Assembly (NCBI GenBank): GCA_030427125.1
Contig: JAUHXF010000008.1
Span: 1-37,732 of the forward strand
DNA length: 37,732 nucleotides
DNA from: a bacterium
GTDB taxonomy: Bacteria; Patescibacteriota; Saccharimonadia; Saccharimonadales; SZUA-47
Direction of reading: 5' to 3'
Within the stretch, counting starts at the first letter, position 1. Every line of letters begins with the position of its first letter. Below the pieces are notes generated by a model. It searched no databases and was not told where the DNA came from. It saw only the letters and a program-made list of their open reading frames with translations. Below are positions 8,387 to 27,899 of this stretch, one piece after another. A program made the translations under genes and the position numbers.

Positions 8387-9433
8387 ATGCTTTATTCGTT
8401 GCAGTTACAGAATATTCGTTCATACAAGAACGGCATATTTGAATTTAAACCGGGTGTGAACATAATCGTTGGGCCAAACGCGAGCGGCAAGACAAACTTA
8501 CTTGAAGCTATATCATTGCTGTACCAGGGCAGCGCCTTTAAAAGCTCGGATGAAAATATGATTCGCCATAATGAAGCATGGGCGAGAATAGACGCCGTGA
8601 TTGATGGGGTTGATCGTGTAGTTAAGATTCAGAGAGAGCCCCTCAAAAAGGTTTATGTATTGGACGAGGTGGAGAAAAAACGACTCACGCACATAACCAA
8701 ATTACCGATCGTCCTATTCGAGCCTGAACATATGCTACTTTTATCAAAAGAGCCAGAGAGAAGGCGTAGTTATATAGATACAGTCTTAAAACAGACGGAA
8801 TCTACCTACGCTGACACACTTTCAAAATACAAACGAGTATTGTCGCAGCGCAATAGATTATTAAAGCAAGAAAGGAGTTCTCAAGAAGATTTTTTCGTAT
8901 GGGACATGCAACTTTGTGAACTTGCTGGAAGGATAGTTGAAGCTCGTCAATCGTATATTACTGATGCGAATAAAAATCTTACGAAGCGCTACCGTTCTGT
9001 TAGCGGCGGCAAAGAGACGCTGCAACTAAAGTATGAGTCAAAAATAGATAAAGCGAATTATGCAAATTCACTTGCCTTAACACTACAAGATCAATTTGAA
9101 CTTGATAAGATGCGGGGCTTTACTGGGGCTGGTCCTCATCGAGATGATGTACAAATCTTACTCAATGAGAAAGACGCGCGCACGAATGCTTCCCGCGGTG
9201 AAACACGTAGTATTGTATTGGCGTTAAAGATTACTGAGCTTGAAATGGTCTCGGAGGCGTTAGATAGCCAGCCTTTATTGCTCCTTGATGACGTTTTTAG
9301 CGAGCTGGACGGTAAGCGTCGACAGACTTTAGCTAAAACATTGCAAGAATATCAGACCTTCATAACAACTACGGACGCTGATGTTGTAATGGATCACTTT
9401 ACCGACTCCAACATCATCCCAATCACAAATTAA
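8387..9433 (+). CDS. recF: DNA replication/repair protein RecF
   Basis: 348 aa; Walker A GPNASGKTNLLEAISLLY; LLLLDDVFSELDGKRRQ; dnaN-recF synteny. Confidence 0.96.
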   Translation: MLYSLQLQNIRSYKNGIFEFKPGVNIIVGPNASGKTNLLEAISLLYQGSAFKSSDENMIRHNEAWARIDAVIDGVDRVVKIQREPLKKVYVLDEVEKKRLTHITKLPIVLFEPEHMLLLSKEPERRRSYIDTVLKQTESTYADTLSKYKRVLSQRNRLLKQERSSQEDFFVWDMQLCELAGRIVEARQSYITDANKNLTKRYRSVSGGKETLQLKYESKIDKANYANSLALTLQDQFELDKMRGFTGAGPHRDDVQILLNEKDARTNASRGETRSIVLALKITELEMVSEALDSQPLLLLDDVFSELDGKRRQTLAKTLQEYQTFITTTDADVVMDHFTDSNIIPITN

Positions 9434-10937
9434 TTAAAGGAGATATGAAACGGTATCCCTGCTCTTTTAATTTATTGTTCTTTATTATGCTTGATAGCTC
9501 TGCTTCTGCGGCTTGAAGATTTTTCTGGTCAATTTTTAGGCTCCCTGTTTCTTCATTAATAACTCTCTCACCAAGGTTTAATGACAGGTGAACAAAACGG
9601 TCTCCTATTGATGCGTTTTGAACAAACGGACTTTCAGTAATCGGCTGTAATAATACATCTTCCTTAATACTATTCGTGTTAGCTGTATCAATTTGTAACG
9701 TGTGAGATCGGTTGTTTCTATCACGAACATTAATAGTTGCATATTCATCACCGAGACTCATAGAGTCCACGGAGTAATAATCACTACTGTATATGTATCG
9801 ACCCGTCAATGATTCATCTTGAATTTTGTATTCAACAACATGCGTATCAAAAACAACATAAACATATTCAGAGCTTGCGTAGAAGTTTACTACCTCATTT
9901 TGTGCGTATAGAAGATTTAGGTTATTATCGTAAACACCAAGTCGACCTAAGTCATCTAACACGCAAATATACTCCCTTATGCAATAAGAAGATTTAATTA
10001 AGGGTCTGTTCGTTACTCTTTTATTAAATGTCTCAGCTTTGTAGGAGCTAAGCACACCTTTAGAGGCTGTGATATTTATATCATCACCTTCTGTTATAAA
10101 GCCAGACATCAAAACTCCATCGTTAACTACGTCACTAATGGTAATCAAGCCTTCTTCTTCAGGAAGCTCTATTCTCTCCACAGAACTTAAATTGTTGCCC
10201 GAATAATAAAATCTTCCTTCTCGGGGTATAAATATAATCTTGTCACCGCTTCTTCTAACTGTGAAGGTGGTGTCGCTCGGCAGGTTTTCTATAATACGCA
10301 CGAAAACAATATCGAAACCGCCCCCCGCCTCTTTTAGCTCGTATAGAAAGTGTCCAGCACCAAAATTCTCCGAAGCTCTAACAAGGGCATACGTGGACTC
10401 ATTGACGTCAAATACTCCTTCAATTACTCCTGGGTCTGGATTGTCGAGGCTCGTGCTTTCTGCAAATAAGTCCTCTGCCCGAACAACTAACGAAGGTTTT
10501 GTAGAAGTTGGCTGGCTGTGGTAAACAAGACTAAACATCGTTCCGCCGCAGACATATGATACATAGGAACTTCCTAGAGGGTGCACACAAGATTGAGAGT
10601 CGTTTGCGACAAAATATCTTCCATCTTGTGGCCGTAGGTTTGCGTTTATATCCCTTTTTTGAAAAAATCCTGGGACATTGGTTAGCGCGCTAAAATCTCC
10701 GTCATCACCACTAATCTCTACTAAATATTTTCCAGAAGGAACGGACAGCTCGGTTATATCGGATGGGTTCGAAACGGTATTCCTGTAGTTTTCCCCGATG
10801 ACAGTAATCTGCTGCACATTTTGGCTGACAACAACAGTTAACCTACCTCTACTAGACAGCCATAAAATAAAAAGTGTTAGTACCAGCAAAAGTGCAAGTA
10901 AAGCAGTAACTATAATTAATTTTCTACGACTTATCAT
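9423..10937 (-). CDS. Membrane-anchored protein with PEGA-like N-region and beta-propeller-like body, last gene of the T4SS-like operon
   Basis: 504 aa; N-terminal TM (LIIVTALLALLLVLTLFILWL), short RLTVVVSQNVQQITVIGENY...VPSGKYLVEISG segment, then repetitive beta-rich sequence; start overlaps upstream gene by 4 bp. Confidence 0.65.
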   Translation of the reverse strand: MISRRKLIIVTALLALLLVLTLFILWLSSRGRLTVVVSQNVQQITVIGENYRNTVSNPSDITELSVPSGKYLVEISGDDGDFSALTNVPGFFQKRDINANLRPQDGRYFVANDSQSCVHPLGSSYVSYVCGGTMFSLVYHSQPTSTKPSLVVRAEDLFAESTSLDNPDPGVIEGVFDVNESTYALVRASENFGAGHFLYELKEAGGGFDIVFVRIIENLPSDTTFTVRRSGDKIIFIPREGRFYYSGNNLSSVERIELPEEEGLITISDVVNDGVLMSGFITEGDDINITASKGVLSSYKAETFNKRVTNRPLIKSSYCIREYICVLDDLGRLGVYDNNLNLLYAQNEVVNFYASSEYVYVVFDTHVVEYKIQDESLTGRYIYSSDYYSVDSMSLGDEYATINVRDRNNRSHTLQIDTANTNSIKEDVLLQPITESPFVQNASIGDRFVHLSLNLGERVINEETGSLKIDQKNLQAAEAELSSIIKNNKLKEQGYRFISPLINL

Positions 10938-13339
10938 TGAGATCCCAGTCCAGCTAAAATATCTATAGCTTCATTTATCCTATCTCTAACCTCTTCGCTG
11001 CCGTCTTGACAGTCAGCGCATCGCTCATAGTCCACGGCAAATATACTTGCGGCTTCTTCAACCGTCGTAGAGGCAAAGAATGGGTCTCCAGCACGTGTTT
11101 TTTCACTAGATATTTCTCCACCAAAACCAGTTCCACGGAGCTGTCCGTCTAGGAATCGTAGTTGATACGGAATGGTGTCAATTTCATCATATGTCACCCC
11201 TCTCAATGAAGACTGTTCGATTATCTTTCCGGTTGGCGTCCATTGCACAAGACCCCAGCCTATACCGCTAGTTGCAGTAATATCTACGGTCGACGAAGGT
11301 GTTTCAGTGCCCCGTGGAGTTCCCTGAAGCCGCATAGGCTCTACAGACGATTCATGACGCATATTTGCAATCACACCGGCAGCTTGTTCACGAGTAAACC
11401 CAAGTTCTCTTGTTAAAATCCTAAACACATCTGCTTCATTGTTGCCTGTCGTATTTACGTTACACACATCCCTGCCGCTACTCAAAGTGAGTACACTGTT
11501 TTTGTACTGAAGTATTTCTACAAGATTTTTTTCTGTGCTAATACCTCGAGATTTTACCTCATCAATAATTGATTGGAGCTCTGCATCACTTGTGAAGTTG
11601 AATAATGGCATTGTTGCTCCTGCGGCCAGGCTTTTTGCGATTGTGTCCTTTGAGTTTTCGCTTGCTAGAGCCCCTGCTTTCAAGTCGTCGGTTGTGATTA
11701 TGCCCTCAAAACCTAACTCTTCACGAAGAAGCCTAACACCGGCTGCGCTTGTCCCTATGACCTCTCCTTCAGATGTAAGGCCGGGCACAACCGCATTATT
11801 CAACATAACCACACCGTTGTGGCTGTTAACTAGATCTTCAAAGGCAAGAAGATCTCGGTCTCTTAGCGTGTCGATGTCCGGCGAGGTCTGTGGTTCATTG
11901 TCTGTGTTTCCTGGTGTTGTTCCGAGACCTGGAAAGTGTTTGTATGTAGGGTTGACTCCTGCTGAACGCAATCCTTTTGCAAAGGCAGATGCCTTTGCCT
12001 TCACGACTGCCGGGTCTTCAGAGAATCCTCTGTCTAAGTCGAATACCGCTCCACTCCCCTCTACCGACAAATCTGCCACAGGAGCTAGAACCGTATTAAC
12101 GCCTCTATCAAGAAGTTTTTCGCCAATTTCTTTAGCAACGAGCTCTATCTCTGCATCACTTTTTTCTCCGAGTTCTTTTGCGCTTGGGTATTCGCCAATC
12201 TGTTCTCGAAATCTTTGTACTCTACCGCCTTCTTCGTCGCTCGCCACCAACAACGGAATTCCTGCCGCAGCATTGAGGCTATCAAAAAATGCTTTGTTAT
12301 ACTCTCCATTGTCATTTCCCAGGATAAAAACTCCTCCAAGTTTATATTTTTCTACAGCCTCTATCATCTCCTGTCGCTGCGCACCGGTGAATCCTACTAT
12401 GAATGTCTGGGCGATTTTCTGGTCTTCAGATAGCCCGCCAATTGCCTCGGTGACGTCTAGTGTGGGGGTTAAGCTGGATGCTGCTTGTGGCACAGAACCA
12501 GCGGAGATAGACGGTGCTATTATTTGATCTAAGATCCAGCCTGCCTTTGCTTGATTGCCGCTTGTAGTGTGGTGCACACTGTCTGCTAGAGGATACTTAG
12601 CTCCCTCGTTTCGGGTCAGTGAAGCTCTGTATTCTGAAGCAAAATCTAGAACAGTAAAGTTACTTCTTGCAGCTGCCTCGGCTATAGCATTATTAACATT
12701 TGTTTCAGATCCATTTCTTCGCACGGTATTTACCCAGAAAATTTGAGCAGACGAATTATTTGATCGAAGCACGTTGACAAACTCAGTGGTTAAGCGAATC
12801 ATGAGTTCTTGATCTATGTTGGTCGCTCGGTTTGTTCCGAGTCCGACAACGATGATGCCTGCATTAGCATAATCTTGAGCATGTTCAGCTAGATACGGTT
12901 GAATGTTGGTTGATTGAAAGGCTCCGATTGCTTCTGCAGAAGGGCCCCATCTTCTATTGTCGGTGTGCCCACCTGCGCTTCCAGGTTCAACGCTTTCATC
13001 TACATTAAATCCGCGTAGTTTCGCCTCAGTTAGTAGTCCTGAATTTATCATCTGTACGGTTATAGAGTCACCTATAAAGAACACCTTGCTGTTATCTACG
13101 GAGTTTGATGTTCTTCCTCCGCATTGCAAAGTAGATATAGATTCAGGGTCTCGTACTGCTTGGGAGCGATTGAGTTGGTCTACATCGAACTGCGTAAGTG
13201 GTAGTAGCTGCGCTGAAACACTATCAGATAGCACAAATACAAACCCCACCAAGAGTACCATGCATGCATAGCTATAAGATTTTAGTCGACTTAGGTTTGT
13301 ATATTTTTTGACCGGATTATTAATCTTTCTCAGAATCAT
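10934..13339 (-). CDS. Three-module cell-wall hydrolase: SGNH esterase-like + GH3 (NagZ-like) + phage-tail-type lysozyme
   Basis: 801 aa with N-terminal hydrophobic segment. SGNH: FFIGDSITVQ, VVGLGTNRA, DSVHHTTSGNQAKAGW. GH3: IPLLVASDEEGGRVQRF, PTYKHFPGLGTTPGNTDNEPQTSPDID, GFEGIITTDDLKAGAL. Lysozyme-like: ELGFTREQAAGVIANMRHESSVEPMRLQGT...SGIGWGLVQWTP. Confidence 0.88.
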   Translation of the reverse strand: MILRKINNPVKKYTNLSRLKSYSYACMVLLVGFVFVLSDSVSAQLLPLTQFDVDQLNRSQAVRDPESISTLQCGGRTSNSVDNSKVFFIGDSITVQMINSGLLTEAKLRGFNVDESVEPGSAGGHTDNRRWGPSAEAIGAFQSTNIQPYLAEHAQDYANAGIIVVGLGTNRATNIDQELMIRLTTEFVNVLRSNNSSAQIFWVNTVRRNGSETNVNNAIAEAAARSNFTVLDFASEYRASLTRNEGAKYPLADSVHHTTSGNQAKAGWILDQIIAPSISAGSVPQAASSLTPTLDVTEAIGGLSEDQKIAQTFIVGFTGAQRQEMIEAVEKYKLGGVFILGNDNGEYNKAFFDSLNAAAGIPLLVASDEEGGRVQRFREQIGEYPSAKELGEKSDAEIELVAKEIGEKLLDRGVNTVLAPVADLSVEGSGAVFDLDRGFSEDPAVVKAKASAFAKGLRSAGVNPTYKHFPGLGTTPGNTDNEPQTSPDIDTLRDRDLLAFEDLVNSHNGVVMLNNAVVPGLTSEGEVIGTSAAGVRLLREELGFEGIITTDDLKAGALASENSKDTIAKSLAAGATMPLFNFTSDAELQSIIDEVKSRGISTEKNLVEILQYKNSVLTLSSGRDVCNVNTTGNNEADVFRILTRELGFTREQAAGVIANMRHESSVEPMRLQGTPRGTETPSSTVDITATSGIGWGLVQWTPTGKIIEQSSLRGVTYDEIDTIPYQLRFLDGQLRGTGFGGEISSEKTRAGDPFFASTTVEEAASIFAVDYERCADCQDGSEEVRDRINEAIDILAGLGSQ

Positions 13340-16300
13340 CGAATAATTCCTTCGTCTAATAGCCTCACAATCGTATCAGCATGTTCCTTCATGTATGCAG
13401 CAGACTCACTATTGTTCATTTCTACAAGTAAAGCTGGTGAGTTGGTGGCGTCTGCGTACCACGCCTCCATGAAGCCATAGCCCCTGTTAGCGGCTACTGT
13501 CCATGGCCAACTCTTGTTGTTGCAAGATGCTGTGCTCCCATCAATCATGCCTGTGTATGCTTCAGCAATTGGTCGAGATCGATCATAGGTGGCCTCTCCG
13601 GAGTAGAAGACCTTGTTTATGCAGTCATGATATGCAAAGAACGCACTGGAAGGACCTAATGCTGTCAGGAAGTTTTGGACATTCTGAGTTTCAGCCTCAC
13701 TTGCAGCTGACGCACCCCTATAGTCTCCACTAAATGGTGTGTTGTTGCCACTAGAACCCCATCTATAATCAAAGTTCCTATTTAGATTCACTCCGTTTGG
13801 ATTATTTCTCCCGTTGCTTGCAATAGCAGCTTTGTTTACCTCAGGTATAGCTATTACTCGCACATCGCTCGGGAGTGAAGCGTTGAATAGGAGCTCGAAA
13901 GATACCCTCTGTCCACCATTTTCCGATCCGTGGATAGATGAAGCTATTACAATTGTTCGAGGGTTTGTTTCACCTGCGCATGCATCACGTACGAACACCA
14001 TCATGTCGCTACCATTTGTATCCTGGCCAATTATGCCAGAGGCTCCGCCCATTGCTGATGCAATCTCTTCCCAGTTGAGTGCATTTTGACCAGGAGCAAA
14101 GTAGTCACTTTCAAGACCAATACTTCTGCCTTCGCACGGTATAACCGGTCCGTCAATATATTCAGCAATGCTCACACCTGCCAAGCCTGAGCCGGTAAGA
14201 CGCGCACTCGATGCATCTAGGTTGTAAATTTTTGTTGCAGTGTCATTGACAACCTCATCAAGCATACAGATATTGCTTTTTGTATAGACTACCTCTCCGG
14301 TTTCCTCGTCCATTACTTTTGACTCCTCTCGCTCTATAGCGCGTCTTTCACATTCTTCAGGTGTGGTTACTTCAACATCTTCTTCCAGTTCATCTAGGGA
14401 GAATCCATATTGAGCTACCCCGAAGTTTTGACTTCTGCCAAGCAGACTACGCGTTCCAGCTTCTGCGCTTGCTTGGCCTGATATGCCCGCGATCGCAGAG
14501 CTAAACAATGAATTGCCAGACAGATTAATGCCACTTATTGGTTTTCTTATAGGGAGAATAGTACTCAGTCTAAATAAGGATGTGCTTGCTAGCGACTTAG
14601 CGCTGCTTATATCTAGATAGCGTGCGAAAAAGTCTTTTCGTTCAAACTCTTCCTGTTCTTTTTGTGCAAAATATTGATCTAATTCTGCGACTTCTTGATC
14701 ATTGAGAAGCCTTCCTCCGAGACCCTGCATGTTGCCGTTTTCATCCTCGTAGCCCTTTATCATTGTATTGGTGCTTGCGTCGTTAGCGGCCATTACCTGA
14801 TCGATAGCCGTGGCGCCGTCTTCTGTCAGTACATCTGTAGATAACCTAAACATATTATTAATAATTGCTGAGAATACACCCCCAAAAACACCAGATACTG
14901 TGTTGATAGCACTTTTAACGGGGCCTAGGCTGGTGATTGCGCCGACTGCTGGGCCTGTGACGAAATCAACAAATGAATCAATTTTGTCTAGAGCTCCGTG
15001 CACTAAATCGTTTAAACATGGTGTTCCCGTTATAGGTGTACAGGCACGATAAGGACCTAGAGCGATATCTTTGACTGTCCCCAGAGAACCGGAATTTAAG
15101 GCCTCTTCTATTCCCACCGTTTGCCTCAGCTTTGTTTCCGGGCAAACTAGCTCTGCTGAGTCCTTTGTTAGAACAACCCCATCGAGACACTGTCTTTCTG
15201 GCAGCGGTCTATTGTTGGATGCTGCATACATTCTGCTTTGCTCGAAACCATCAACCAATTCGTACATAGCACTTATCTCTTCTATACTAAGTCTCGACTC
15301 AGATCCTGCCTGTGCGGCGGTGGTATTAGCAAGGTTGCCCGCGATTGAACCCGGTAGACGGAGCAACGATGCAATTCCTTCGTTCTTTGGAATGTCTATA
15401 GTGCCATCGATACCGGACATTATCATTGCCGAGTATTCAACAGCAGCAGCAACATTTCTGTCATACACAAACTTAGAAATAGAATTATCTTCAACTTTTT
15501 GAACGAGTTGATCAACAGTGTCTAGAAGGTAGAGAGCAGTTACTATACCAGCAGAGCCTGCAAGTGAACCTATCACTTTAGGGGCTGCGGTCTTAAAGAT
15601 CTTATCGAATACTTTTTCTGTTAGGTATCTTCCAACCCTCTTGTCGCCTATTTCAGAGACAATATCTTGCATTTTTTCACTGGACGCTTCGAGTGCTTCT
15701 CGTGCGGCCCTATTAGTGTCACGATCAAGCTCTTGCGGACTACAAGACGACACAAGACAGAACAAATAGGCGCCAGCCCTAGCATTTGCGGGTTCTACGA
15801 CCCGAGCGATTAATTTAATTTGAAGCTGTTTGAGTCGACTGATGTTTTTTGTGCCAAATTCATCTCGCTTGAAACAAAGTATAAAGCACCATTTCTTTGC
15901 ACCATGGAAAGCAGCTGCTGACCTGAAATGTCTTCGTCCTAAAATACCCTTCCATTTTGTTTCTGCTTCTATAAACTCTCCACTAATTTTTGCTATTCCT
16001 CTTGGGCCGCCCGCTCCTACGACTCTTCCATTTTGAATGACCCTATACTCTCTACCCCCTCTAAAGTCAGTGCTTGGTGCACTTTCAATCTCGATACCAA
16101 AATTATTGAAAAGTTTTGTCTCAATCCTGTTTTGATTCCAATTATTAAATGTTTTCGAGAATATATTGCCAGTTAGAACCTTATTACAGCCACGACGCAA
16201 TGTTGTCCCACAGTCATCCTGCCCAGCAGTCGGTACTAATTTTGAAATATAATACTGAGCAGTAAATTTTTCTAGTCTCTCACCTACGAGCTGCGTTGCC

Positions 16301-16959
16301 CTGCTGCTCGCAGAAGTAACAGCTTCTTTGAATTGCTGGAGTGCAAGCTGAGGGATGGCCATAATTCCGGCAATTGCTAGAGTGACGCCGAGACCGCCAA
16401 TAAAAGTAAAGATGGCCTTTTTAGTATTGGATGCTTTTTTCTTTGCCTTGTTTTTTGTATCGCTTATTGAATAGCGCCACGCAGACATGCCTTTTTCGTC
16501 ATCATCAGAATCTTTTTCTGCCTCACTTACTACTGAACTATCTTGACCGTCGTCTGTTGAAGCGCCATTTTCTGCGTTAGCTAGATCCGCTTCTCCGACA
16601 CCATTCTCTTGTGCGTTAGACGCATCTTTGTCGTCTGTTGGATGGGCTTCTGGATCATACTCAGAATTGCCTACTCCCCCTTCGTCATTCAAGGGCATAT
16701 CAGGGTCGTACGAGTCGCCGGCTCCACCCTCAGGGTTGACGAAATCGGGTTCGATAGCGTCTTGCGCGTTTTGACCTTCTTCTTGCGCGATTTGCTGAGC
16801 AGGAGAGCCTGATGCAAAACGCTGTCTATTTTGCGGCGTGTTAAGCACAGGAGATTTAGCGGTTGGGTTTTTGCCTCTGTTATCGATTCTTCCGCGACCA
16901 CGCAAAGAAACCTTAACTTTCCCTTTGCCTGGTCTTTCTGGTGCTGGTGCTGTTGCCAT
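13336..16959 (-). CDS. Large membrane protein with acidic disordered N-terminus and C-terminal M14-family zinc carboxypeptidase/murein amidase domain
   Basis: 1207 aa; TM AIFTFIGGLGVTLAIAGIMAIPQLAL; C-terminal HGSENGG (HxxE), NPNGVNLNRNFDYRW, FFAYHD and ALLVEMNN match the M14 zinc-ligand and catalytic positions. Confidence 0.82.
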   Translation of the reverse strand: MATAPAPERPGKGKVKVSLRGRGRIDNRGKNPTAKSPVLNTPQNRQRFASGSPAQQIAQEEGQNAQDAIEPDFVNPEGGAGDSYDPDMPLNDEGGVGNSEYDPEAHPTDDKDASNAQENGVGEADLANAENGASTDDGQDSSVVSEAEKDSDDDEKGMSAWRYSISDTKNKAKKKASNTKKAIFTFIGGLGVTLAIAGIMAIPQLALQQFKEAVTSASSRATQLVGERLEKFTAQYYISKLVPTAGQDDCGTTLRRGCNKVLTGNIFSKTFNNWNQNRIETKLFNNFGIEIESAPSTDFRGGREYRVIQNGRVVGAGGPRGIAKISGEFIEAETKWKGILGRRHFRSAAAFHGAKKWCFILCFKRDEFGTKNISRLKQLQIKLIARVVEPANARAGAYLFCLVSSCSPQELDRDTNRAAREALEASSEKMQDIVSEIGDKRVGRYLTEKVFDKIFKTAAPKVIGSLAGSAGIVTALYLLDTVDQLVQKVEDNSISKFVYDRNVAAAVEYSAMIMSGIDGTIDIPKNEGIASLLRLPGSIAGNLANTTAAQAGSESRLSIEEISAMYELVDGFEQSRMYAASNNRPLPERQCLDGVVLTKDSAELVCPETKLRQTVGIEEALNSGSLGTVKDIALGPYRACTPITGTPCLNDLVHGALDKIDSFVDFVTGPAVGAITSLGPVKSAINTVSGVFGGVFSAIINNMFRLSTDVLTEDGATAIDQVMAANDASTNTMIKGYEDENGNMQGLGGRLLNDQEVAELDQYFAQKEQEEFERKDFFARYLDISSAKSLASTSLFRLSTILPIRKPISGINLSGNSLFSSAIAGISGQASAEAGTRSLLGRSQNFGVAQYGFSLDELEEDVEVTTPEECERRAIEREESKVMDEETGEVVYTKSNICMLDEVVNDTATKIYNLDASSARLTGSGLAGVSIAEYIDGPVIPCEGRSIGLESDYFAPGQNALNWEEIASAMGGASGIIGQDTNGSDMMVFVRDACAGETNPRTIVIASSIHGSENGGQRVSFELLFNASLPSDVRVIAIPEVNKAAIASNGRNNPNGVNLNRNFDYRWGSSGNNTPFSGDYRGASAASEAETQNVQNFLTALGPSSAFFAYHDCINKVFYSGEATYDRSRPIAEAYTGMIDGSTASCNNKSWPWTVAANRGYGFMEAWYADATNSPALLVEMNNSESAAYMKEHADTIVRLLDEGIIR

Positions 16960-16992: not shown

Positions 16993-18912
16993 TTATTGGA
17001 GGTTTACCGTGTTATTATACCCTGTTTGCTCGAGATTCACTTGCTGTTGCTGCTCAATTGCTTTCACTTCATTTGGATCTGTTGTAATGAGTTGGGTTTC
17101 TGTCGGAGAAGCTGTTATCTGTATGTGGACATGGTTCTCGCCAGCAAAAAACAAACCTTGCCCTACCGGGAACTGTGTTAGTCGTTTCTTCTCTTCGCTT
17201 GTCAGCTTAAATACGTTACTCAATACATCTACGGCAGATGCAGACTGTTTCAGCAGTATCTGCATACTGGCGTTTGCCACAATTGCACGACCCATGCGTG
17301 ACCCCATAAAGTCCTCAACGTCTTGCGTAATGGTTGTTATGCCGAGGTTGTACTTACGTGCTCGCTTCGCTAAGGAGAACAAGAAGTTTGCACTATCTTC
17401 ATATTTCATGAGTTGCCATGCTTCATCAACGACAAGCATGCGTTTCTTCTGGTCCGTCTTTGTCTTGTTCCAGATGTAGTTTAGGACAATATACATCGCT
17501 ACTGGGCGGAGCTCATCTTCTAGGTCACGAACATTAAATACTACAAGCGGATTGTTGATGTCGATGTTGCTTTGCTGGCTAAAGATACCCGCAAACGTAC
17601 CTGTTGTATATTTGCGTAGGCGCTGCGCGAGGTCTGGCCCAGAGCCACCCATATGTAGGAGCGTGTCGTATAGATCGTTGATAGTCGGCGCAGGGGTTGA
17701 GTGTGTTAGGGGGTCATTGGTTATGCCGGCTTTGGCATAGGTTTCAATCAGTGCGGCATCAAGGTCGGATTCCTCCGACGGGCTTAGTGCTGGCATCACC
17801 ATACTGCCGCCACCCTGCTGCTGCGCCATCTGGGCTTGTGCACCACCCATCATGAGTCTGAGTAGTCCGTGCAGCGTTATGATGTTGCTACGGAGGGCGT
17901 TGTCGGCCTCTTCGCCATCAACTACTTTTGGTAGATCAAATGGATTAATTCTCGTTGAGCTGTTTAGGCTTAGGCGTACATAGGCGCCGCCAACAGCATC
18001 TGCCAGTCGTTCGTATTCGTTTTCAGGGTCGATGATAAACACCTCTGTGCCGAACATCATGCTCCTAATTGCTTCGAGTTTGACTGTGAAGCTTTTACCG
18101 GCACCAGACTTTGCAAATACAACACTGTTACCGTTCTCGAGTGAGAATCTATCAAATATCACAAGGCCTGAGTTATGCATATTTACGCCGTATAGAATGC
18201 CGTTATCTTGGGTGAGATCAGCACTTGTGAACGGGAACGAAGTGCTAATTGCACCAGTGTTCATGTTGCGTCTTATTTGCAGTTGATCTTCAAATTGTGG
18301 AAGCGTTGAGTTAAGGCCCTGCTCTTGTTGAGCGCTGGCCGGCTTGCTGTAGACAAGTTGTTGTGCAAGAATCCCTTCTACTTTGTGTGACACAAACTCC
18401 AATTCGTCAACGTCGTTTGCATATATCGTGAAATAAAGGCCAAATCTGAAAAAGCGCTCTTCTCCCACCTGTAATTTATCTCGTAGTTCTTCTGCATCTT
18501 GAATCGCCGCTTGTTTACCAGGGTCTCGCACACGGCCTTTTTCAGCTTCAATTTGAATACCTGCCTCGAGCTGGCCTACTTTTTTTCGAAGGTTTTCAAG
18601 AACAACTTGGCTCTCTACTGGATAAACAAAGAGTGATAAATCGATGATTTCATCGAGGTTTACTAGGCTGCTCAGCCAGCCCGTGTAAATCTGTCTCGGA
18701 TAGCCGTACACATAGTATGTTCGAGCAATTCTCGTGCCTATCTTGAACATACTGCTTTCAAATTCAAGGCTAGCCGGTGCGATAAAGTCTCGAAGTGCGG
18801 TGATTCCTTTTTGAAACGCCGCCTGTACCTCAAGCTGTTCTTGCGCAGCTTGCATTTGTGCTTGTGCGATAGGATCGTTTTTTGGCTGTTTGCCGCCTCC
18901 CAGTAGCCCCAT
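16993..18912 (-). CDS. virB4: VirB4-family T4SS ATPase
   Basis: 639 aa; Walker A VVFAKSGAGKSFTVKLEAIRSM, Walker B KKRMLVVDEAWQLM, TTITQDVEDFMGS. Confidence 0.92.
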   Translation of the reverse strand: MGLLGGGKQPKNDPIAQAQMQAAQEQLEVQAAFQKGITALRDFIAPASLEFESSMFKIGTRIARTYYVYGYPRQIYTGWLSSLVNLDEIIDLSLFVYPVESQVVLENLRKKVGQLEAGIQIEAEKGRVRDPGKQAAIQDAEELRDKLQVGEERFFRFGLYFTIYANDVDELEFVSHKVEGILAQQLVYSKPASAQQEQGLNSTLPQFEDQLQIRRNMNTGAISTSFPFTSADLTQDNGILYGVNMHNSGLVIFDRFSLENGNSVVFAKSGAGKSFTVKLEAIRSMMFGTEVFIIDPENEYERLADAVGGAYVRLSLNSSTRINPFDLPKVVDGEEADNALRSNIITLHGLLRLMMGGAQAQMAQQQGGGSMVMPALSPSEESDLDAALIETYAKAGITNDPLTHSTPAPTINDLYDTLLHMGGSGPDLAQRLRKYTTGTFAGIFSQQSNIDINNPLVVFNVRDLEDELRPVAMYIVLNYIWNKTKTDQKKRMLVVDEAWQLMKYEDSANFLFSLAKRARKYNLGITTITQDVEDFMGSRMGRAIVANASMQILLKQSASAVDVLSNVFKLTSEEKKRLTQFPVGQGLFFAGENHVHIQITASPTETQLITTDPNEVKAIEQQQQVNLEQTGYNNTVNLQ

Positions 18913-19730
18913 TACTCAAGCTCCTTATCTAGATTTGGATTCACAGCGTCACCTTCTCCCTTTGTGACCACAGGAGCGGTGAGGTCGCTGAAATTCTTGA
19001 GCTGCTGACGAGTTGCAGTATCTGGGTTATAGGCGTCGTAATACAGCTCGATTAATTCTTGTGTATCAAGAGGAAGTGATTTTACTTGGCATTGCTGCAG
19101 GCCGTTCATCACCGCCTGAATACGGTTTTTGAGCTCAGTTTTTGCGCGCTCGAGGTCCACCTCATTGATGACGACATGTTCATCTTTCTTGCCAAAGATG
19201 GTTTGGAAGAAGCCCTTGCTCGCTTTCACTGCTTTCTGCATATCGAGTTCTGGCTCAAATGGAATCACGACATAAAATTTCTTATCCATGATGTTTGTTT
19301 GGCTGACGATCGTTTCCATGTAGTTAATGTAGTCCTCCATAAGGAGTGCAAGCAGCATGTTGTCATGTTCAGTTCGGATTTTATCGAGCTTTTCGATATA
19401 TGGACGCATGTCAATCTTTTGGCTTCGAACAAAGATTTGCACCGGAAAATAGAGTGAATTCAAGAAGCCTTGATATGCGAACTCAACCCCCTCGCGCTCT
19501 TGCGGGCTCATGAGGTCAAAATTGATGCTGTTGCACATGAGAACTGCACGAAATGACCCGTCATTCATAATGACGATACCGTCACGTATCTCAGCTATTT
19601 CTAGCGCATTCTGGGTACTCGTCTTATTTGTTGCAAGTTTTGGTGTGGATTGTGGGGACATAGCCGGCTGTCCTGCTTGAACAGGTTGTTGTTGCTGAGT
19701 TGCCTGCGGTTGTTGCTGATTAGGATTCAA
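18912..19730 (-). CDS. TraC-like / VirB4 N-terminal-like T4SS protein (TTG start)
   Basis: 272 aa; EIAEIRDGIVIMNDGSFRAVLMCNSINFDLMSPQEREGVEFAYQGFLNSLYFPVQIFVRSQKIDMRPYIEKL resembles the TraC N-terminal domain; adjacent to virB4 with stop/start overlap. Confidence 0.75.
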   Translation of the reverse strand: MNPNQQQPQATQQQQPVQAGQPAMSPQSTPKLATNKTSTQNALEIAEIRDGIVIMNDGSFRAVLMCNSINFDLMSPQEREGVEFAYQGFLNSLYFPVQIFVRSQKIDMRPYIEKLDKIRTEHDNMLLALLMEDYINYMETIVSQTNIMDKKFYVVIPFEPELDMQKAVKASKGFFQTIFGKKDEHVVINEVDLERAKTELKNRIQAVMNGLQQCQVKSLPLDTQELIELYYDAYNPDTATRQQLKNFSDLTAPVVTKGEGDAVNPNLDKELE

Positions 19731-19763: not shown

Positions 19764-20891
19764 CTAATGAAGCGATATAACGACTTCACCATCTGATGAA
19801 TCATCATTCTTGTGAGTTTCACGAGCCAATGATTCAACGCTACGATCGTTGTTTTGTGCTAACGACAGTATAGCAGGGTCTACAGGGGTTGTGCTACTTA
19901 TTGACGGGTCAGTTTTTGATGTTGAGGGCATTACTGGTTGTTGTCCTGCAGGCAGAATGGTTTTTAGATGACTATGACTCTCAATAGCCTCTTCTATGTC
20001 ATGTTTTTTGTGGAGCTTATTCAACAGCGCTTCTTCTTCGTCTTTTGTTATGGTCGGTCGTTTTACTACTGGCTTTGCTGGTTTTTGTGCTGGCGGCTTT
20101 TCAGCCTTCATTGCAGTGTGATGTTCATCTACCTGAGGTAGTGATACGCTGTCGAATACTGGGTCTGATTTTTGTTCCTGACCTTTGTGAGCACTAGGTA
20201 GGGCAATCTCTTGTGCTGCACCATCTTCGTCAAGCACCGATTTATGCATCTTTTTACTTTTTTGGCGCGCCTCAGCGACGAGATCAAGCGTGTGTTTGCG
20301 GTGTTCATCCTCGGATTTTTTTATTGCTGTGTCTACGTGGTTTGCAGCGGCGGATGTGTCGTCAAGGATGTCTTCTTCCTGGGCTTGTTGTGCCTGCTGC
20401 ATTGCTGATGTGGGCTCGACCGCTGTTGTGGCTACAAGTCTGTCGCTAGCTGGTGCGCGGTCCATGTTTTTCACGGCCCAACCGCGAGTATCGACGACAC
20501 TTGAAAGTGCTGAAAGTCTGCTTTTTACCTGGTCTTGAGAGAGGCCGTCTGTGTATACGTGCACCTCCTTTTTAGGAACAGTAATAGTTACCAAATCTTT
20601 CATGCCTGATTGATCCCATATGCGCTTGCGCTTCATAAGCATGAAGCGAATTCTGGAGGCAAGAAAAATTTCAGTAGGCTGGTCCTTAGACCAGGGAGCT
20701 GCTAGAGCGCCAAAACCAAAAAAGAACGGCAAAAATACGATAGCTAAAAAAGCCGCTCCCGATGTCACAACGAGAAACGTAAGATAGCCAGAAATAAGGG
20801 CGCCACCAGCAAACAAGAACTGTTTGAACGATAGTGGACCAAGGAACTTATCATCAGCCTCAACGTCTTGAGGGACTTTATACACAGCCAT
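19764..20891 (-). CDS. PrgI-family (VirB3-like) T4SS membrane protein with long charged C-tail
   Basis: 375 aa; MAVYKVPQDVEADDKFLGPLSFKQFLFAGGALISGYLTFLVV...FFGFGALAAPW matches the PrgI-family N-terminus; upstream of virB4. Confidence 0.8.
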   Translation of the reverse strand: MAVYKVPQDVEADDKFLGPLSFKQFLFAGGALISGYLTFLVVTSGAAFLAIVFLPFFFGFGALAAPWSKDQPTEIFLASRIRFMLMKRKRIWDQSGMKDLVTITVPKKEVHVYTDGLSQDQVKSRLSALSSVVDTRGWAVKNMDRAPASDRLVATTAVEPTSAMQQAQQAQEEDILDDTSAAANHVDTAIKKSEDEHRKHTLDLVAEARQKSKKMHKSVLDEDGAAQEIALPSAHKGQEQKSDPVFDSVSLPQVDEHHTAMKAEKPPAQKPAKPVVKRPTITKDEEEALLNKLHKKHDIEEAIESHSHLKTILPAGQQPVMPSTSKTDPSISSTTPVDPAILSLAQNNDRSVESLARETHKNDDSSDGEVVISLH

Positions 20892-22435: not shown

Positions 22436-25400
22436 TTAGGATTCATTCTCGGCATTATTTTGCTGATTTAACTGTTCTTGAGTCTGATTTTGGTTTGGCA
22501 TTTGACTTGAGGAAACTGATTTATAACCTTTCGCCATTGCTGCTCGAACTCTTTCGCCTGGTGAAGCAGGGCCTTGCTTTGGCGCAAGCATAACAGGTTT
22601 GCCGTCAGCGTCTCTCTTCACATTGCCATACTCATTGTATTCGTATGCTGGTTCTGAATCAGCTTGTGCAATCGCTTGCGCAGGTCCTGTGTCTGCACTA
22701 GAAACAATACGAGCAACCTCGGCACTCCCCGATTGCTGAGCCATGGTCTTTAACCTATCCATTGACGCAGACAAAGCTCCCATCTGTGCAGCAATGGTTT
22801 CCTGTTCTTCTACACTACTAGCATTAGCCATTTGTGACTCTAAAGCAGCCATGCTTGCGTCAAATCCTTGCTTTAGGTTCTTGGCTGCGGTAGGGTGCAG
22901 TCTACCAACTTCTCCATATGTAATACTGTCGAGTGCCTTCTGGTTCTGTCTGTTATTAATTGACTCCATGGCAACGTCCTGCATACTCACTCCGCTTTGT
23001 GTAACATACCTTCCGTCATCTCCCCTTACAGCTGCTGCAGAAGCCCCCATGCCATCCCATTGGTACTTCCCGTCCGCTCCTTTAACAGCTGCTGATGCTT
23101 TAGCTATTCTATAGTTTCCTTCCTCGTCTTGATACGTTACCTCGGCCCCGCCGTTCATCGCAGATTTAAGCATCGCAGCCTTTTCACCGTAGCTTCCCCC
23201 TCCTAGATCGTGTCTTCCTGCTGCCGCCGCAGCTGCACTAGCCTCGCCAAGCATCTTCATCGCCACAGCCTCGTTTCCGTGTGACATTGACATAATTTTC
23301 TGGGCCATTTCTTCAAAGCCGCCAGTGAATGAGGTCTTGGAAGCAGCCATTGAGGTGACGACTGCTTGCGCCAATGCGTGACCGGAATGATCTCTTTCAA
23401 GAGCTTGAGCTTGAGCAATAGTTTGTTTGACTGCTTGGTCTGAGTATCCTTTGCCCGCAAGGAAGTCGCGCGCCTCCTCAGATCTTCCGGCTATTATTAG
23501 AGATAGGGCTTCAGCAAAATCATCATTCTTTAGCTCAGCATTAACCTGGATGTCTTCTAGCGCATGTTTTGCATGCTCAAGCCTTGCTTTGTCGTCTGCC
23601 GCATCATATGCTCCGCCCCTCAGTCCTTCTTTCAGACCATTTCTCTTTATCGCTTCGGCTCTTGTGTATCCTGCTTTTCCTAGATCATTAATTCCCTTGC
23701 GCCAACCTCGTTTTGCTTTGTCGCCTTTAAACCTATTGCCTGCGTAAAGATCTTTTCGTAATTGTTGACGCTTGTCAGCTCGATATTTCTTTTGTCTATC
23801 AAACACTCCTTTACTAGTGTTATTGGCCATGCCTGCGAGGTTCGCGAAGACACCGCCTGCGTACTTGAAGATTGCAATTATAAAGAAGAACGGACCAATG
23901 TAGAATACTAGCTTCATGAGCGTGGTAAACACTGTTGCACTGTCGCCCTCGAGACCAGCAACAACCGCAGCCATTCCCCGCCCTAACATCAACATGCCTA
24001 TGACTAACGGGTAGATGAGCAGTAGCTTGGTAAACGTATTCCACCAGAGCTTCCATGCTTTGTCGTTTCCAGGAAAGATCCAAGACAATATTGCGAGTGG
24101 CGCCAGCACCATAAGGAACACAATAATGAGCTCACGAACGTTTAATAAAACAAAAATTACGATAAGTGCCAGAAAGGCAACTCCAAGGTAGCTTGCCACT
24201 ATTCCGATAGATGCAAAGCCTACAGCTCCTATTGCGAGGCTTCCACCGATGGCACCATAGCTTACAAGTGCACCTTCTACAGGGCTGAATATTCTTTCTA
24301 GTGCTAATGCACTTTCTCCGCCAAAGGGAGCTGCAACGAGTCCACCGGTTGCGGCGCCTATATTATTAGTGATTTCAATCATTATCCGAGAAATGTCGTA
24401 CGAAAGCGACATAAATATCACCGCGGCCAATAGCCGAGGCATGGCTCGCTTTACGGTGTAAGCATCAACAAACTGGAAACCAAGAGCAGTAGATATTACC
24501 ATTACGAGTAGAATAGGAATTAGCAGCACTGACGCAATATTTCTAAAACGCGCCCAAGTGTCACGAATTGCCTCGGACTCATAGTAGTCTCTGCCAACGT
24601 TCATAGCCTGTCTGATCTCATTGTCAAGCAGCTGGATTCCTTCACTTGCTGCTTCAATAAGCGGGCAAATTAACCAACTTAATGACCCTTTGGATTCACA
24701 TGATTCCTGAGCAATACCGCCACCCCCACTTTCACCGGTATCAGCAACTGGAACAGATGCCTCTGGTGTCGACAATAAGTCTGTTCTACCTAAAGGCAGT
24801 CGAATAGGATTGATTGAACCATCATCTCGTACCCAGTTAGTTGCACCGTTAATTCGTCTAGAAAGGGTGCCAGCGGTTAATCCGCCAAAAAAACGATCAA
24901 CGAAATTTAGCCCCACAACCGTACACTGTGTGTCTTGTGTCTCGTCAGGAGCATCTGGGGACCCATCTTGATCAAGCTCGTACACCGTTACTCGATTGTT
25001 TTCTACAATGGCTACGTCTTGACATGTTTCACCAGCTTCGCTATCTCTTTTATAGTACCCTTCTTCAACGAGTGAAAAAGTGAAGTCGCCTCTTCCGCGC
25101 ACCGTCGGTATTAGTTGGTTCGGTTGGTTGCTATTTACATTCATGATTTTTCTCGTATTTTGAGCATTAAAGATACTCTTGCGAATGCCACCACCCTTGT
25201 CTTCTGCTATAGTTGACTGCTCTGTGGGATAGAGGTCTATGTCTAAATCGCCAAACATAACCTCCTCTCCTTGCTGACCTGCTACAACCGAGTATCCGTC
25301 TGGTAGTGTTATTTTTCCGGCATCACTTCCATAGTCTTCTGCTTCGAATCTATATGTTTGGTCCCATGGGTCCGAATCAATAAATCGAATAGTTATGTCT

Positions 25401-25576
25401 TTATCGGGCACTCTCAACGTAATGAAATCTGGATCTTCGAACTGCAGCCGGGCATTCTGTACGTCTTCCTCGGTCAAAACAGGGTATGCAGAAGCGCTCG
25501 TTGTGAGTAAAAACGAGAATAGTGGGAGCATCAGAATTTGAACAGCCACTACAGTAAAGAACTTTTTAACAAGCAT
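22436..25576 (-). CDS. VirB6/TrbL-like polytopic T4SS channel protein with N-terminal signal peptide
   Basis: 1046 aa; signal peptide MLVKKFFTVVAVQILMLPLFSFLLTTSASAY; multiple TMs (VLLIPILLVMVISTALGF, VAFLALIVIFVLLNVRELIIVFLMVLAPLAILSWIFPG, WWNTFTKLLLIYPLVIGMLMLGRG, FYIGPFFFIIAIFKYAGG) then long Ala/Gln-rich cytoplasmic tail. Confidence 0.85.
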   Translation of the reverse strand: MLVKKFFTVVAVQILMLPLFSFLLTTSASAYPVLTEEDVQNARLQFEDPDFITLRVPDKDITIRFIDSDPWDQTYRFEAEDYGSDAGKITLPDGYSVVAGQQGEEVMFGDLDIDLYPTEQSTIAEDKGGGIRKSIFNAQNTRKIMNVNSNQPNQLIPTVRGRGDFTFSLVEEGYYKRDSEAGETCQDVAIVENNRVTVYELDQDGSPDAPDETQDTQCTVVGLNFVDRFFGGLTAGTLSRRINGATNWVRDDGSINPIRLPLGRTDLLSTPEASVPVADTGESGGGGIAQESCESKGSLSWLICPLIEAASEGIQLLDNEIRQAMNVGRDYYESEAIRDTWARFRNIASVLLIPILLVMVISTALGFQFVDAYTVKRAMPRLLAAVIFMSLSYDISRIMIEITNNIGAATGGLVAAPFGGESALALERIFSPVEGALVSYGAIGGSLAIGAVGFASIGIVASYLGVAFLALIVIFVLLNVRELIIVFLMVLAPLAILSWIFPGNDKAWKLWWNTFTKLLLIYPLVIGMLMLGRGMAAVVAGLEGDSATVFTTLMKLVFYIGPFFFIIAIFKYAGGVFANLAGMANNTSKGVFDRQKKYRADKRQQLRKDLYAGNRFKGDKAKRGWRKGINDLGKAGYTRAEAIKRNGLKEGLRGGAYDAADDKARLEHAKHALEDIQVNAELKNDDFAEALSLIIAGRSEEARDFLAGKGYSDQAVKQTIAQAQALERDHSGHALAQAVVTSMAASKTSFTGGFEEMAQKIMSMSHGNEAVAMKMLGEASAAAAAAGRHDLGGGSYGEKAAMLKSAMNGGAEVTYQDEEGNYRIAKASAAVKGADGKYQWDGMGASAAAVRGDDGRYVTQSGVSMQDVAMESINNRQNQKALDSITYGEVGRLHPTAAKNLKQGFDASMAALESQMANASSVEEQETIAAQMGALSASMDRLKTMAQQSGSAEVARIVSSADTGPAQAIAQADSEPAYEYNEYGNVKRDADGKPVMLAPKQGPASPGERVRAAMAKGYKSVSSSQMPNQNQTQEQLNQQNNAENES

Positions 25577-25656: not shown

Positions 25657-26271
25657 ATGAACCAAATAAAATTATCGCTAATGGCGTCCCTTCTCGTGTT
25701 GATAGCAGTATATGCTGCCTTTACTATAACTGCACCTGTTCTAGCGGATCATACAGTTGATCATTGCGCTGAACAGGTAGGCTCAGATAATAATACAGAT
25801 TTTGACCTTTGTGTCGATGGTGCTCCATCAACAATCGCGGAACAGTCGAGGTGGTGTGAAAATAATCGTTCTGATAGTGAATTTGAAAGCTGCATGCAAA
25901 GCGTGTTTGGCATTGATGTCACCTCTTCTAACGATAACGAAACGACACCATCACAATCAACGTCGCAACCAGTTGACTTCGATGACGATGAAGTTACGAG
26001 CGAAAACGACTGTAGTGCAGACGTGTTAACATCTGACAACTGCATCATAATTCAGTACATAGTTAGAGCTATTAATATATTGTCAGCTCTGGCAGGTCTT
26101 GCAATCACCGGATCAATAATGATTGCCGGGTATCAATACATGACTGCTCGTGATAACTCAGGACAAATCGAGGCCTCAAGGAAGCGAATCATCTGGGCTC
26201 TTATTGCACTGGCTACCCTTATATTCACCTACGCATTCTTGAACTTTATAGTCCCCGGAGGAGTGATATGA
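25657..26271 (+). CDS. T4SS pilin-like protein 1 (extended, Cys-containing ectodomain)
   Basis: 204 aa; signal peptide, then two TMs: IVRAINILSALAGLAITGSIMIAGYQYMTARDNSGQIEASRKRIIWALIALATLIFTYAFLNFI. Confidence 0.78.
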   Translation: MNQIKLSLMASLLVLIAVYAAFTITAPVLADHTVDHCAEQVGSDNNTDFDLCVDGAPSTIAEQSRWCENNRSDSEFESCMQSVFGIDVTSSNDNETTPSQSTSQPVDFDDDEVTSENDCSADVLTSDNCIIIQYIVRAINILSALAGLAITGSIMIAGYQYMTARDNSGQIEASRKRIIWALIALATLIFTYAFLNFIVPGGVI

Positions 26272-26687
26272 GACGCCTGAGAAGCACGCTTGCTTTTATC
26301 AGTTTTAGCATAGTCTCTTTGTTCATGTTTACGTTACCGGCGGCCGCAGTTCCTTGCGAGCCTGAATCTGATATCCTTGGTATCCCTACCTGGTATAAGT
26401 ATTTAGAAGGTGAAGACATTGGCGGAAAATGTACGCCACGTATTAATGCAGCTGAAGATGCCTTGCCAATAGGTCTAGCTGTTCTTGAAATACTCATGAC
26501 TTTTGCTGGTGTTGTTGCGGTTGTTATGGTTATATGGGCATCCTTTCAGTTTGTACTTACACAGGGAGAGCCAGATAAAGCGGCTTCTGCTAGAAAGACC
26601 GTAATCAATGCAGCTATTGGTCTTGTTATTGTTATCGTAGCAACGAGAGTAGTATCATTCATCGCAAACACATTAACCAGCGGTTAG
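26268..26687 (+). CDS. T4SS pilin-like protein 2
   Basis: 139 aa; signal peptide; VLEILMTFAGVVAVVMVIWASFQFVLTQGEPDKAASARKTVINAAIGLVIVIVATRVVSFIANTL; overlaps upstream gene by 4 bp. Confidence 0.82.
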   Translation: MRRLRSTLAFISFSIVSLFMFTLPAAAVPCEPESDILGIPTWYKYLEGEDIGGKCTPRINAAEDALPIGLAVLEILMTFAGVVAVVMVIWASFQFVLTQGEPDKAASARKTVINAAIGLVIVIVATRVVSFIANTLTSG

Positions 26688-26696
26688 ACAAAACAT

Positions 26697-26987
26697 ATGA
26701 AAGAATTATTAGGACAAATTGACATATCACAGGATGAGCTTAACATCCCTAAAGATGTAGCTGCTGATAGTAGTACGGTTGAGATTGTTCTGGAGCTAGC
26801 GTTCGGGTTACTCGGAATGATTGCGTTCATCGTCATAATTATTGCAGGCTTGCAGTTTGTACTAAGTCGCGGAGAGCCAGAAAAGGCAGCAAAAGCTCGA
26901 CGGACAATTATATATGCGGCTGTTGGTTTGGTGATTGCAGTTTCTGCGTTTACCTTGGTTCAGTTTGTAACAGAGACGGTAGGATGA
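26697..26987 (+). CDS. T4SS pilin-like protein 3 (no signal peptide)
   Basis: 96 aa; VLELAFGLLGMIAFIVIIIAGLQFVLSRGEPEKAAKARRTIIYAAVGLVIAVSAFTLVQFV. Confidence 0.8.
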   Translation: MKELLGQIDISQDELNIPKDVAADSSTVEIVLELAFGLLGMIAFIVIIIAGLQFVLSRGEPEKAAKARRTIIYAAVGLVIAVSAFTLVQFVTETVG

Positions 26988-27376
26988 AAAAAATCATTAA
27001 ATCATTCATAGCATCAACTGTACTGCTTTCAGTCTTGCTCGTACCTGCAGGTGTAGGTGCACAGTTTGACACACTGGAGCAGGTTTGCGGGCCAGATAGT
27101 ACATCTGCGGTATGTACTGAGAATGAGCGCGGTAAAGACGAAGATCCATTTATCGGAGAAAATAGTACACTAGAAATAGTTGCTAATTTTCTCGCAGTTA
27201 TTACGGGAGTAATAGCGGTGATTATAATTATCATTGCTGGTATTACTATGATGTTGTCAGGTGGCGACAGTACTAAAGTTCAAAATTCGAGAAATGCAAT
27301 AATATACGCAGCAATTGGGATCGTTGTGGTTACATTGGCGCGAACAATTGTCGTTTTTGTGGTTAATAGAGTATAA
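26984..27376 (+). CDS. T4SS pilin-like protein 4
   Basis: 130 aa; signal peptide ...VPAGVGAQ; GVIAVIIIIIAGITMMLSGGDSTKVQNSRNAIIYAAIGIVVVTLARTIVVFVV; 4-bp overlap with upstream gene. Confidence 0.82.
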   Translation: MKKIIKSFIASTVLLSVLLVPAGVGAQFDTLEQVCGPDSTSAVCTENERGKDEDPFIGENSTLEIVANFLAVITGVIAVIIIIIAGITMMLSGGDSTKVQNSRNAIIYAAIGIVVVTLARTIVVFVVNRV

Positions 27377-27386
27377 AGGAACAATT

Positions 27387-27836
27387 ATGAAAAAAATGCT
27401 CAGTATTTATATCGCAACCTTAGCAGTGTTTCTGCTTGGTTTATTAGGCATATCAAACAGTCTTGTTGCGGCTGATACAGCACAGGATGCTGTCTGTAGA
27501 GGCATAGGAGCTGTTAGCGGAGATGGAACTTGTGTTGAAGGGGACGGTGGCTCAAAGGCAGACGACACAATTATTACTGTTATTAATATACTTTCTATTA
27601 TTGGAGGTGTTATAGCTGTAATCATGATAATGATTGCGGGGATTCGTTTTGTGACTTCGAGCGGCGATTCTGGTTCAGTTGCTACTGCGAGGAACACAGT
27701 TATTTATGCAGTCGTGGGGCTTATTATTATTGCCCTATCTCAAATTATCGTACGATTTGTGGTTGAGCGGGTTAGTGCCGATCCTCCGCCACCAGAAGAC
27801 TCAATGCTCGTCGAGCCGCTGCACGAAGTTGCATAG
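27387..27836 (+). CDS. T4SS pilin-like protein 5
   Basis: ORF track starts at 27315, but the SD (AAAGGA) and signal peptide MKKMLSIYIATLAVFLLGLLGISNSLVAAD place the start at 27387; GVIAVIMIMIAGIRFVTSSGDSGSVATARNTVIYAVVGLIIIALSQIIVRFVVERV. Confidence 0.85.
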   Translation: MKKMLSIYIATLAVFLLGLLGISNSLVAADTAQDAVCRGIGAVSGDGTCVEGDGGSKADDTIITVINILSIIGGVIAVIMIMIAGIRFVTSSGDSGSVATARNTVIYAVVGLIIIALSQIIVRFVVERVSADPPPPEDSMLVEPLHEVA

Positions 27837-27839
27837 GGG

Positions 27840-27868
27840 TTGAGCATCAATGGAGCTTATGATATAAA
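27840..27868 (+). promoter_or_regulatory. Putative sigma-A-type promoter for pilin 6
   Basis: TTGAGC (27840-27845), 17-nt spacer, TATAAA (27863-27868); SD AAAAGGA follows before the ATG at 27900. Confidence 0.5.
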
Positions 27869-27899
27869 CTAAGTAAACCTAAAAAAGGAATAAAACAAT

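Follow-up and report, generated by a model that had tools for sequence, protein, structure and literature searches.

The window described here is a stretch of 37,732 nucleotides (contig JAUHXF010000008.1 of assembly GCA_030427125.1) from a bacterium of the class Saccharimonadia, and it carries a type IV secretion system (T4SS) cluster in which one gene, referred to below as the cassette gene, encodes a protein of 801 amino acids (aa) that joins an SGNH, a GH3 and a lysozyme module in a single chain. The bacterium is tiny, and its group is known for a life attached to other bacteria. Judging from its position, its domains and its counterparts in relatives, we consider it likely that this protein is the exchangeable peptidoglycan-processing part of the Saccharimonadia T4SS and that it opens a cell wall, most likely that of the host; when we call it equivalent to VirB1 or PrgK, we refer to where it lies and what it would do and imply no common descent. 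A first-pass annotation of the same DNA described the three modules and missed this context, in which the gene, to go by its neighbors and relatives, is the one through which the T4SS cluster swaps its wall hydrolase.

Module exchange downstream of carrier A

The coordinates of the open reading frames (ORFs) confirm the 801-aa frame at exactly 10934..13339 on the minus strand, where the cassette gene overlaps both of its operon neighbors by 4 nt, namely the gene of a large membrane-anchored protein that we call carrier A (overlap 13336-13339) and that of a 504-aa protein (10934-10937). The three modules proposed in the first pass are indeed present in one polypeptide, with the GH3 and lysozyme modules passing their Pfam cut-offs and the SGNH module backed by its catalytic set and a profile match in the PDB, and they follow one another in the order SGNH, GH3, lysozyme, all of them C-terminal to a hydrophobic segment at residues 25-43. 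Chimeric assembly as the origin of the gene is ruled out, since the same module set occurs in other assemblies. A phage origin was likewise rejected: a phage collection matched the GH3 region only, and none of the matches spanned 80% of the protein.

For comparison, we used 80 stretches from 79 related genomes, mostly anchored on VirB4 and in some cases picked as matches to the window protein. With the window included, lysozyme, SGNH or GH3 modules are encoded by 56 genes that sit right after carrier A on its strand, and 49 of these are within 30 nt of carrier A or overlap it. Their make-up varies from lysozyme alone (33 genes), SGNH without lysozyme (8), SGNH-lysozyme (5) and GH3-lysozyme (3) to SGNH-GH3-lysozyme (3; the window, G268 and G050), SGNH-SGNH-GH3-lysozyme (1; G359) and lysozyme-SGNH-GH3 (1; G358), with a split lysozyme profile match in two further rows. 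Additional Pfam domains in cassette proteins include C39, amidase_2/3, M23, CHAP, NlpC, SLT and one GH43, and 12 of the 14 sampled clusters that have no SGNH, GH3 or lysozyme module carry SLT, glucosaminidase, CHAP, C39, M23 or amidase at this position. Judged by domain content, a wall hydrolase occupies the cassette position in about 70 related clusters, in most cases one with a muramidase or some other wall-lytic domain, alongside shuffled extras (SGNH, GH3, amidase, C39, CHAP, M23). The C-terminus of carrier A is, by the same measure, a second exchangeable hydrolase slot, which among 61 carriers is filled by VanY (17), M23 (16), Exo_endo_phos (6), M14 (3) or SGNH (3). Modules can sit on either of the two adjacent genes, and the pair, as far as its domains tell, usually combines one activity that cuts glycan with one that cuts peptide.

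The first pass knew of no description of the three-domain order, and in the literature that we searched, mostly open-access papers, we found no description of the SGNH-GH3-lysozyme arrangement or of a module exchange between two carriers. The arrangement is not unique, however: at least four further genomes of Saccharimonadia combine all three modules, one of them in another order. We found no case outside the class; a 384-genome sample of the phylum matched only the GH3 region there (about residues 270-630 among the matches listed).

The cassette proteins have a further feature in common, a short tag that follows the hydrophobic stretch. A motif resembling Y/F-x-D-P..C was found there in 51 of 65 cassette proteins versus 17 of 239 control ORFs that likewise have a hydrophobic segment at the N-terminus, a contrast that is descriptive, the pattern having been written after the sequences were viewed. 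The copy in the window is itself a variant outside this pattern. The tag is present whatever type of enzyme comes next, and our guess is that it has a docking role. In the 801-aa protein, the preceding hydrophobic peak (residues 25-43) ends in SVSA-Q and probably forms a cleavable signal peptide, the cleavage site being judged by eye, so that the protein would be secreted, presumably via Sec.

Several side observations concern the same two genes. The Exo_endo_phos domain, which has a DNase I-like fold, is found in six carrier C-termini and in three cassette proteins and could represent nucleases or phosphodiesterases that reach their target at this site too. In G050 and G091, a second pair of carrier and lysozyme cassette lies beside the main one, without a VirB4 of its own in between (L098:73-4285, L106:3227-7431). 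Finally, in G002, of the same family, a gene of the corresponding type encodes lysozyme-SGNH with a DUF1996 domain after it (L117:4932-8054).

The wall that would be opened

The T4SS of Ca. S. epibionticum is essential (PMC10633639), and the role of this system in Saccharibacteria has been called completely unknown (PMC11665869). Peptidase and lysozyme homologues encoded just downstream of virB4 are reported to be essential as well and may replace VirB1 (PMC12102498). These homologues, in strain ML1 of the same class and known to us from its description, occupy the position of the gene pair in the window; only lysozyme and peptidase are mentioned in that paper, whereas the window adds SGNH and GH3 modules in one chain, which extends a published proposal that in these bacteria the part of VirB1 may be played by other glycosidases. 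Large multidomain wall hydrolases in T4SS clusters, with a glycan-cutting module plus others, are also represented by PrgK, TraG (pIP501) and TrsG. In PrgK of pCF10 (MPF-FATA T4SS), a three-domain enzyme, only the muramidase was found active, and it is downregulated by the LytM and CHAP domains (PMC11323569). The modules of these proteins are SLT, CHAP and sometimes LytM, in contrast to SGNH, GH3 and phage-tail lysozyme in the window protein, whose peptidase counterpart sits on the neighboring carrier A. No Pfam match to SLT or CHAP was obtained in the 801-aa protein, though relatives have such domains at this position. The cassette gene shares with VirB1, TrsG and PrgK its location in a T4SS cluster next to VirB4; by domain content, its product is not a member of their family.

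We then have to ask whose wall such an enzyme would open. Remodeling of the bacterium's own wall, making room for the secretion channel, is what VirB1-type enzymes are known to do (PMC12102498, citing earlier work) and fits a position right after VirB4 and membrane genes. We nevertheless think it rather unlikely that the protein is a plain VirB1-type remodeler of the Saccharibacterium's own wall with no role at the host wall. Measured against the second genome of its genus in the sample, the window genome has 90% identity in VirB4 and 53% in PrgI, whereas identity drops to 28% for carrier A, 30% for the SGNH module and 31% for the lysozyme module. This relative has SGNH-lysozyme-VanY where the window has SGNH-GH3-lysozyme, and across the family the cassette make-up differs again in most members. 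Such differences in enzyme make-up between species of one genus with nearly the same VirB4 would be unexpected if the substrate were a conserved own wall, and modules suited to other polymers or to modifying the wall in other ways (SGNH; one GH43) are present too. That the ATPase is fixed while the outer enzymes diverge and reshuffle fast is our main reason for favoring the host wall as the target.

Several points weigh against a host-wall T4SS component. Sequence cannot separate own wall from host wall as the target, and the fast divergence could reflect relaxed constraint or loose taxonomy instead of adaptation to hosts. The module frequencies in relatives are not unbiased, given a partly enriched sample, and for most classes of Patescibacteria, VirB1 homologues detected with hidden Markov models are reported to show no strong linkage to virB4 (PMC12102498).

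Alternatively, the protein might be a free secreted scavenger that digests wall material for GlcNAc or muropeptides and merely happens to be located in the T4SS operon. GH3 and lysozyme modules would jointly release amino sugars, and the genome, a 90%-complete draft in which all absences are provisional, has no other GH3 and no second NagZ-like enzyme was seen. We hold this explanation to be improbable in view of the strict synteny that, together with gene overlaps, ties the position to the T4SS throughout the class, the N-terminal tag common to cassette proteins regardless of enzyme type, and the finding that S. epibionticum requires the homologous region (PMC12102498).

Active sites of the three modules

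The lysozyme module belongs to Phage_lysozyme2 (PF18013; E 7e-21, 75.2 bits, cut-off 28.2) and matches phi29 gp13 in the PDB by phmmer. Glu663 is conserved in 56 of 56 aligned lysozyme modules that cover the position and is probably the catalytic residue. The window module thus has the family and the probable catalytic Glu in common with phage tail lysozymes of the phi29 gp13 type, from which it differs in not being encoded in a phage. No other PF18013 protein was found in the genome.

The SGNH module remains under the Pfam cut-offs, with 27.5 bits for Lipase_GDSL_2 (PF13472; residues 88-264, E 5e-6, cut-off 32.9) and 16.7 bits for PF00657 (cut-off 23.6), although such a cut-off is a conservative score and not a mechanistic feature. 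We take its membership in the SGNH superfamily to be real for the following reasons. The catalytic set is present, with Ser92 in GDS, Asn170 in GLGTN and a D-x-x-H pair in DSVHH (253-257). In an alignment of 25 members, G-D-S and G-x-N are invariant and the His exceeds 90%, while the position of the block II Gly is ambiguous. Furthermore, the profile of the module matches the catalytic domain of Staphylococcus aureus OatA in the PDB at 2.7e-18, and an AlphaFold2 (AF2) model of the module alone (predicted confidence, pLDDT, 80) matches SGNH folds, with PatB as the top match.

Whether the module is an esterase, as the first pass had it, is less clear, since its closest solved relatives, OatA (in its C-terminal domain) and PatB, are O-acetyltransferases with the same fold and catalytic set. 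They differ in that no membrane acyl-donor domain or partner was found for the window module: neither AT3 (PF01757) nor MBOAT (PF03062) was detected in the genome, and solely because of this absence do we favor an esterase over a transferase. The opposite activity, in which the module adds acetyl groups in the manner of OatA and PatB, for example to protect the epibiont or to seal the site, is suggested by these nearest relatives, but we judge it quite unlikely, both for want of a detected acetyl donor and because O-acetylation would impede the lysozyme module of the same chain.

The GH3 assignment is firm at the level of the fold (PF00933; E 4e-47, 161.6 bits, cut-off 27). A structure search with the full-length AF2 model, which is of moderate quality (pLDDT 68.5), poor in the lysozyme and linker parts and relied on for the GH3 fold alone, gave 4yyf as the best match (TM 0.85 by target length), and the best PDB matches of the module are LpqI-like structures. 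The active site departs from that of NagZ, however. NagZ enzymes use an Asp-His acid/base dyad, described as common to all known members (PMC6572805), within the consensus KH(F/I)PG(H/L)GxxxxD(S/T)H (PMC5615308), whereas the window segment reads KHFPGLGTTPGNTD and has N478-T-D480 for D-x-H. The module reaches 118.5 bits with the NagZ equivalog profile NF003740, under the cut-off of 207. The earlier label "NagZ-like" therefore holds for the fold and the −1 subsite residues, which are the same as in NagZ and LpqI, and not for the dyad; a further difference is the fusion of the window GH3 into a multienzyme chain.

The same replacement recurs in relatives. Residues D368, R437, K467 and H468 of the −1 site and the probable nucleophile D551, the Asp of the (S/T)DD motif, are invariant in all eight T4SS-linked GH3 modules, seven of which have Asp for His, and six of these seven also Asn for Asp; the eighth, from G358, retains a canonical D-x-H pair. 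Across the GH3 alignment D368, R437, K467 and H468 are unchanged (one row is gapped at 368). At position 515, the 24 canonical rows all carry His, and each of the 28 N-x-D rows carries Asn, Ser or Thr. The N-x-D motif is also found in secreted GH3 proteins of Actinomyces, Microbacterium and relatives, and N-T-D in the solved structure 5bu9 from Beutenbergia. These actinobacterial proteins share the N-T-D motif and PG[L]G with the window GH3 but stand alone, many having lipoprotein-like signal peptides (by eye), and we found no published activity for them or for 5bu9 in the literature searched. In a tree built after removal of the motif columns, the T4SS modules form a supported clade (99/95) when the long-branch G050 copy is left out, and 27 of 29 N-x-D sequences fall into one group (94/93), inside which the G358 module with its canonical pair is also nested; an approximately unbiased (AU) test of placing this module within the N-x-D T4SS clade gave p 0.30. 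The actinobacterial N-x-D proteins adjoin the T4SS modules in the trees, which do not contain 5bu9 itself.

Loss of the dyad could mean that the GH3 module is catalytically dead and has become a glycan-binding or regulatory domain, much as in PrgK, where a degenerate LytM domain together with CHAP damps the muramidase (PMC11323569). We find this possible but doubtful. D480 and the five residues named above are invariant among seven N-x-D modules that are only 27-44% identical to one another, the change is concerted, with H480 accompanying H515 and D480 accompanying Asn, Ser or Thr at 515, and it is common to the actinobacterial lipoproteins. Because of these invariant and covarying residues, the N-x-D change looks like a remodeled active site and not like decay.

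The modules suggest a sequence of steps at the wall. Exported by Sec, the protein would probably be retained near the T4SS by its N-terminal tag; the SGNH module would strip O-acetyl groups that would otherwise block the lysozyme, the lysozyme module would cut the glycan chain at its Glu663 active site, the GH3 module might trim or bind the new chain ends, and the M14 peptidase on carrier A would act on the peptide stems, so that a wall, most likely the host's, is opened at the contact site. Joint action on peptidoglycan, as envisaged in the first pass, is plausible by domain content, with GlcNAc removal by the GH3 module unproven for an enzyme that lacks the Asp-His dyad. The order proposed there has to be revised, since an exo-glycosidase would act after the muramidase, which makes new chain ends, and not before it.

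It is tempting to speculate further that the wall-hydrolase position is a host-specificity locus, at which modules are swapped between the two carriers to match the host wall, and that its GH3s represent an uncharacterized class with Asp as the acid/base; we offer this combined proposal tentatively and would not bet on it. Macdonald et al. 2015, as cited in PMC6572805, reportedly links the His to phosphorylase ability in GH3, to go by the title, and if the proposal is true, such reasoning would make the N-x-D enzymes, with Asp for the NagZ His, strict hydrolases that are not capable of phosphorolysis. Phosphorylase activity as a general GH3 property is disputed (PMC6572805, PMC6987092). The N-x-D group, which includes the Actinomyces-type lipoproteins and for which a structure (5bu9) is available, is a concrete target for enzymology. 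Likewise, a wall-hydrolase gene that is present in nearly all genomes sampled, swappable and diverging far faster than the ATPase makes the role of this T4SS testable, namely as a system that opens a cell wall and whose module set may track the host.

The secretion cluster in the window

The window also carries dnaA-, dnaN-, recF- and yidC-like genes, read from their translations. The T4SS genes for PrgI, the TrsD-like protein, VirB4, carrier A and the 504-aa protein share the minus strand with the cassette gene (Table 1). Those relatives of the GH3 module that occur in this setting and bear a name are recorded as Candidatus Saccharibacteria. Of the 394 genomes of the class, 362 have VirB4.

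Table 1. Positions in the window of the T4SS genes and of the parts of the 801-aa protein (TM, transmembrane)
Feature	Position	Strand	Remarks
Array of small VirB2-like pilins	25657..28328	+	two match T4SS_pilin PF18895, one at 51 bits
1046-aa multi-TM protein, VirB6-like	22436..25576	-	assigned from position and appearance only; no family match
PrgI (VirB3-like)	19764..20891	-	PrgI 40 bits, cut-off 27
TrsD-like / VirB4 N-terminal protein	18912..19730	-	TrsD E 5e-7, under its cut-off
VirB4 ATPase (CD1110 family)	16993..18912	-	368 bits, cut-off 325
Carrier A, 1207-aa membrane-anchored protein	13336..16959	-	variable large domain and C-terminal M14 peptidase, about 13342-14154
Cassette gene	10934..13339	-	801-aa SGNH-GH3-lysozyme protein, predicted secreted
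Predicted signal peptide, residues 1-43, ending SVSA	13211..13339	-	hydrophobic peak; cleavage site by eye
Short N-terminal tag after signal peptide, ending Cys73	13121..13210	-	window variant ...VRDPESISTLQC
SGNH module, residues 83-277	12509..13093	-	S92, N170, D253-x-x-H256; D and H by motif
GH3 module, residues 306-601	11537..12424	-	TIM-barrel domain only, no C-terminal GH3 domain
N478-T-D480 replacing NagZ D-x-H dyad	11900..11908	-	probable nucleophile D551
Lysozyme module (Phage_lysozyme2, PF18013), residues 634-794	10958..11440	-	probable catalytic Glu663
504-aa single-TM protein downstream of cassette gene	9423..10937	-	no family

VirB4 is split over two adjacent ORFs, a TrsD/N-terminal-like part (18912-19730) and the ATPase part (16993-18912); TrsD homologues near virB4 have been described in Patescibacteria (PMC12102498). 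A 478-aa protein encoded at 20950-22386, between PrgI and the VirB6-like gene, is rich in basic residues by eye and has no convincing family match. The main body of carrier A gave no Pfam or PDB sequence match. For the 504-aa protein downstream of the cassette gene, there was no match in Pfam, PHROG or NCBIfam; it is conserved over its full length beside the cassette in several families (L044, L073, L082, L083).

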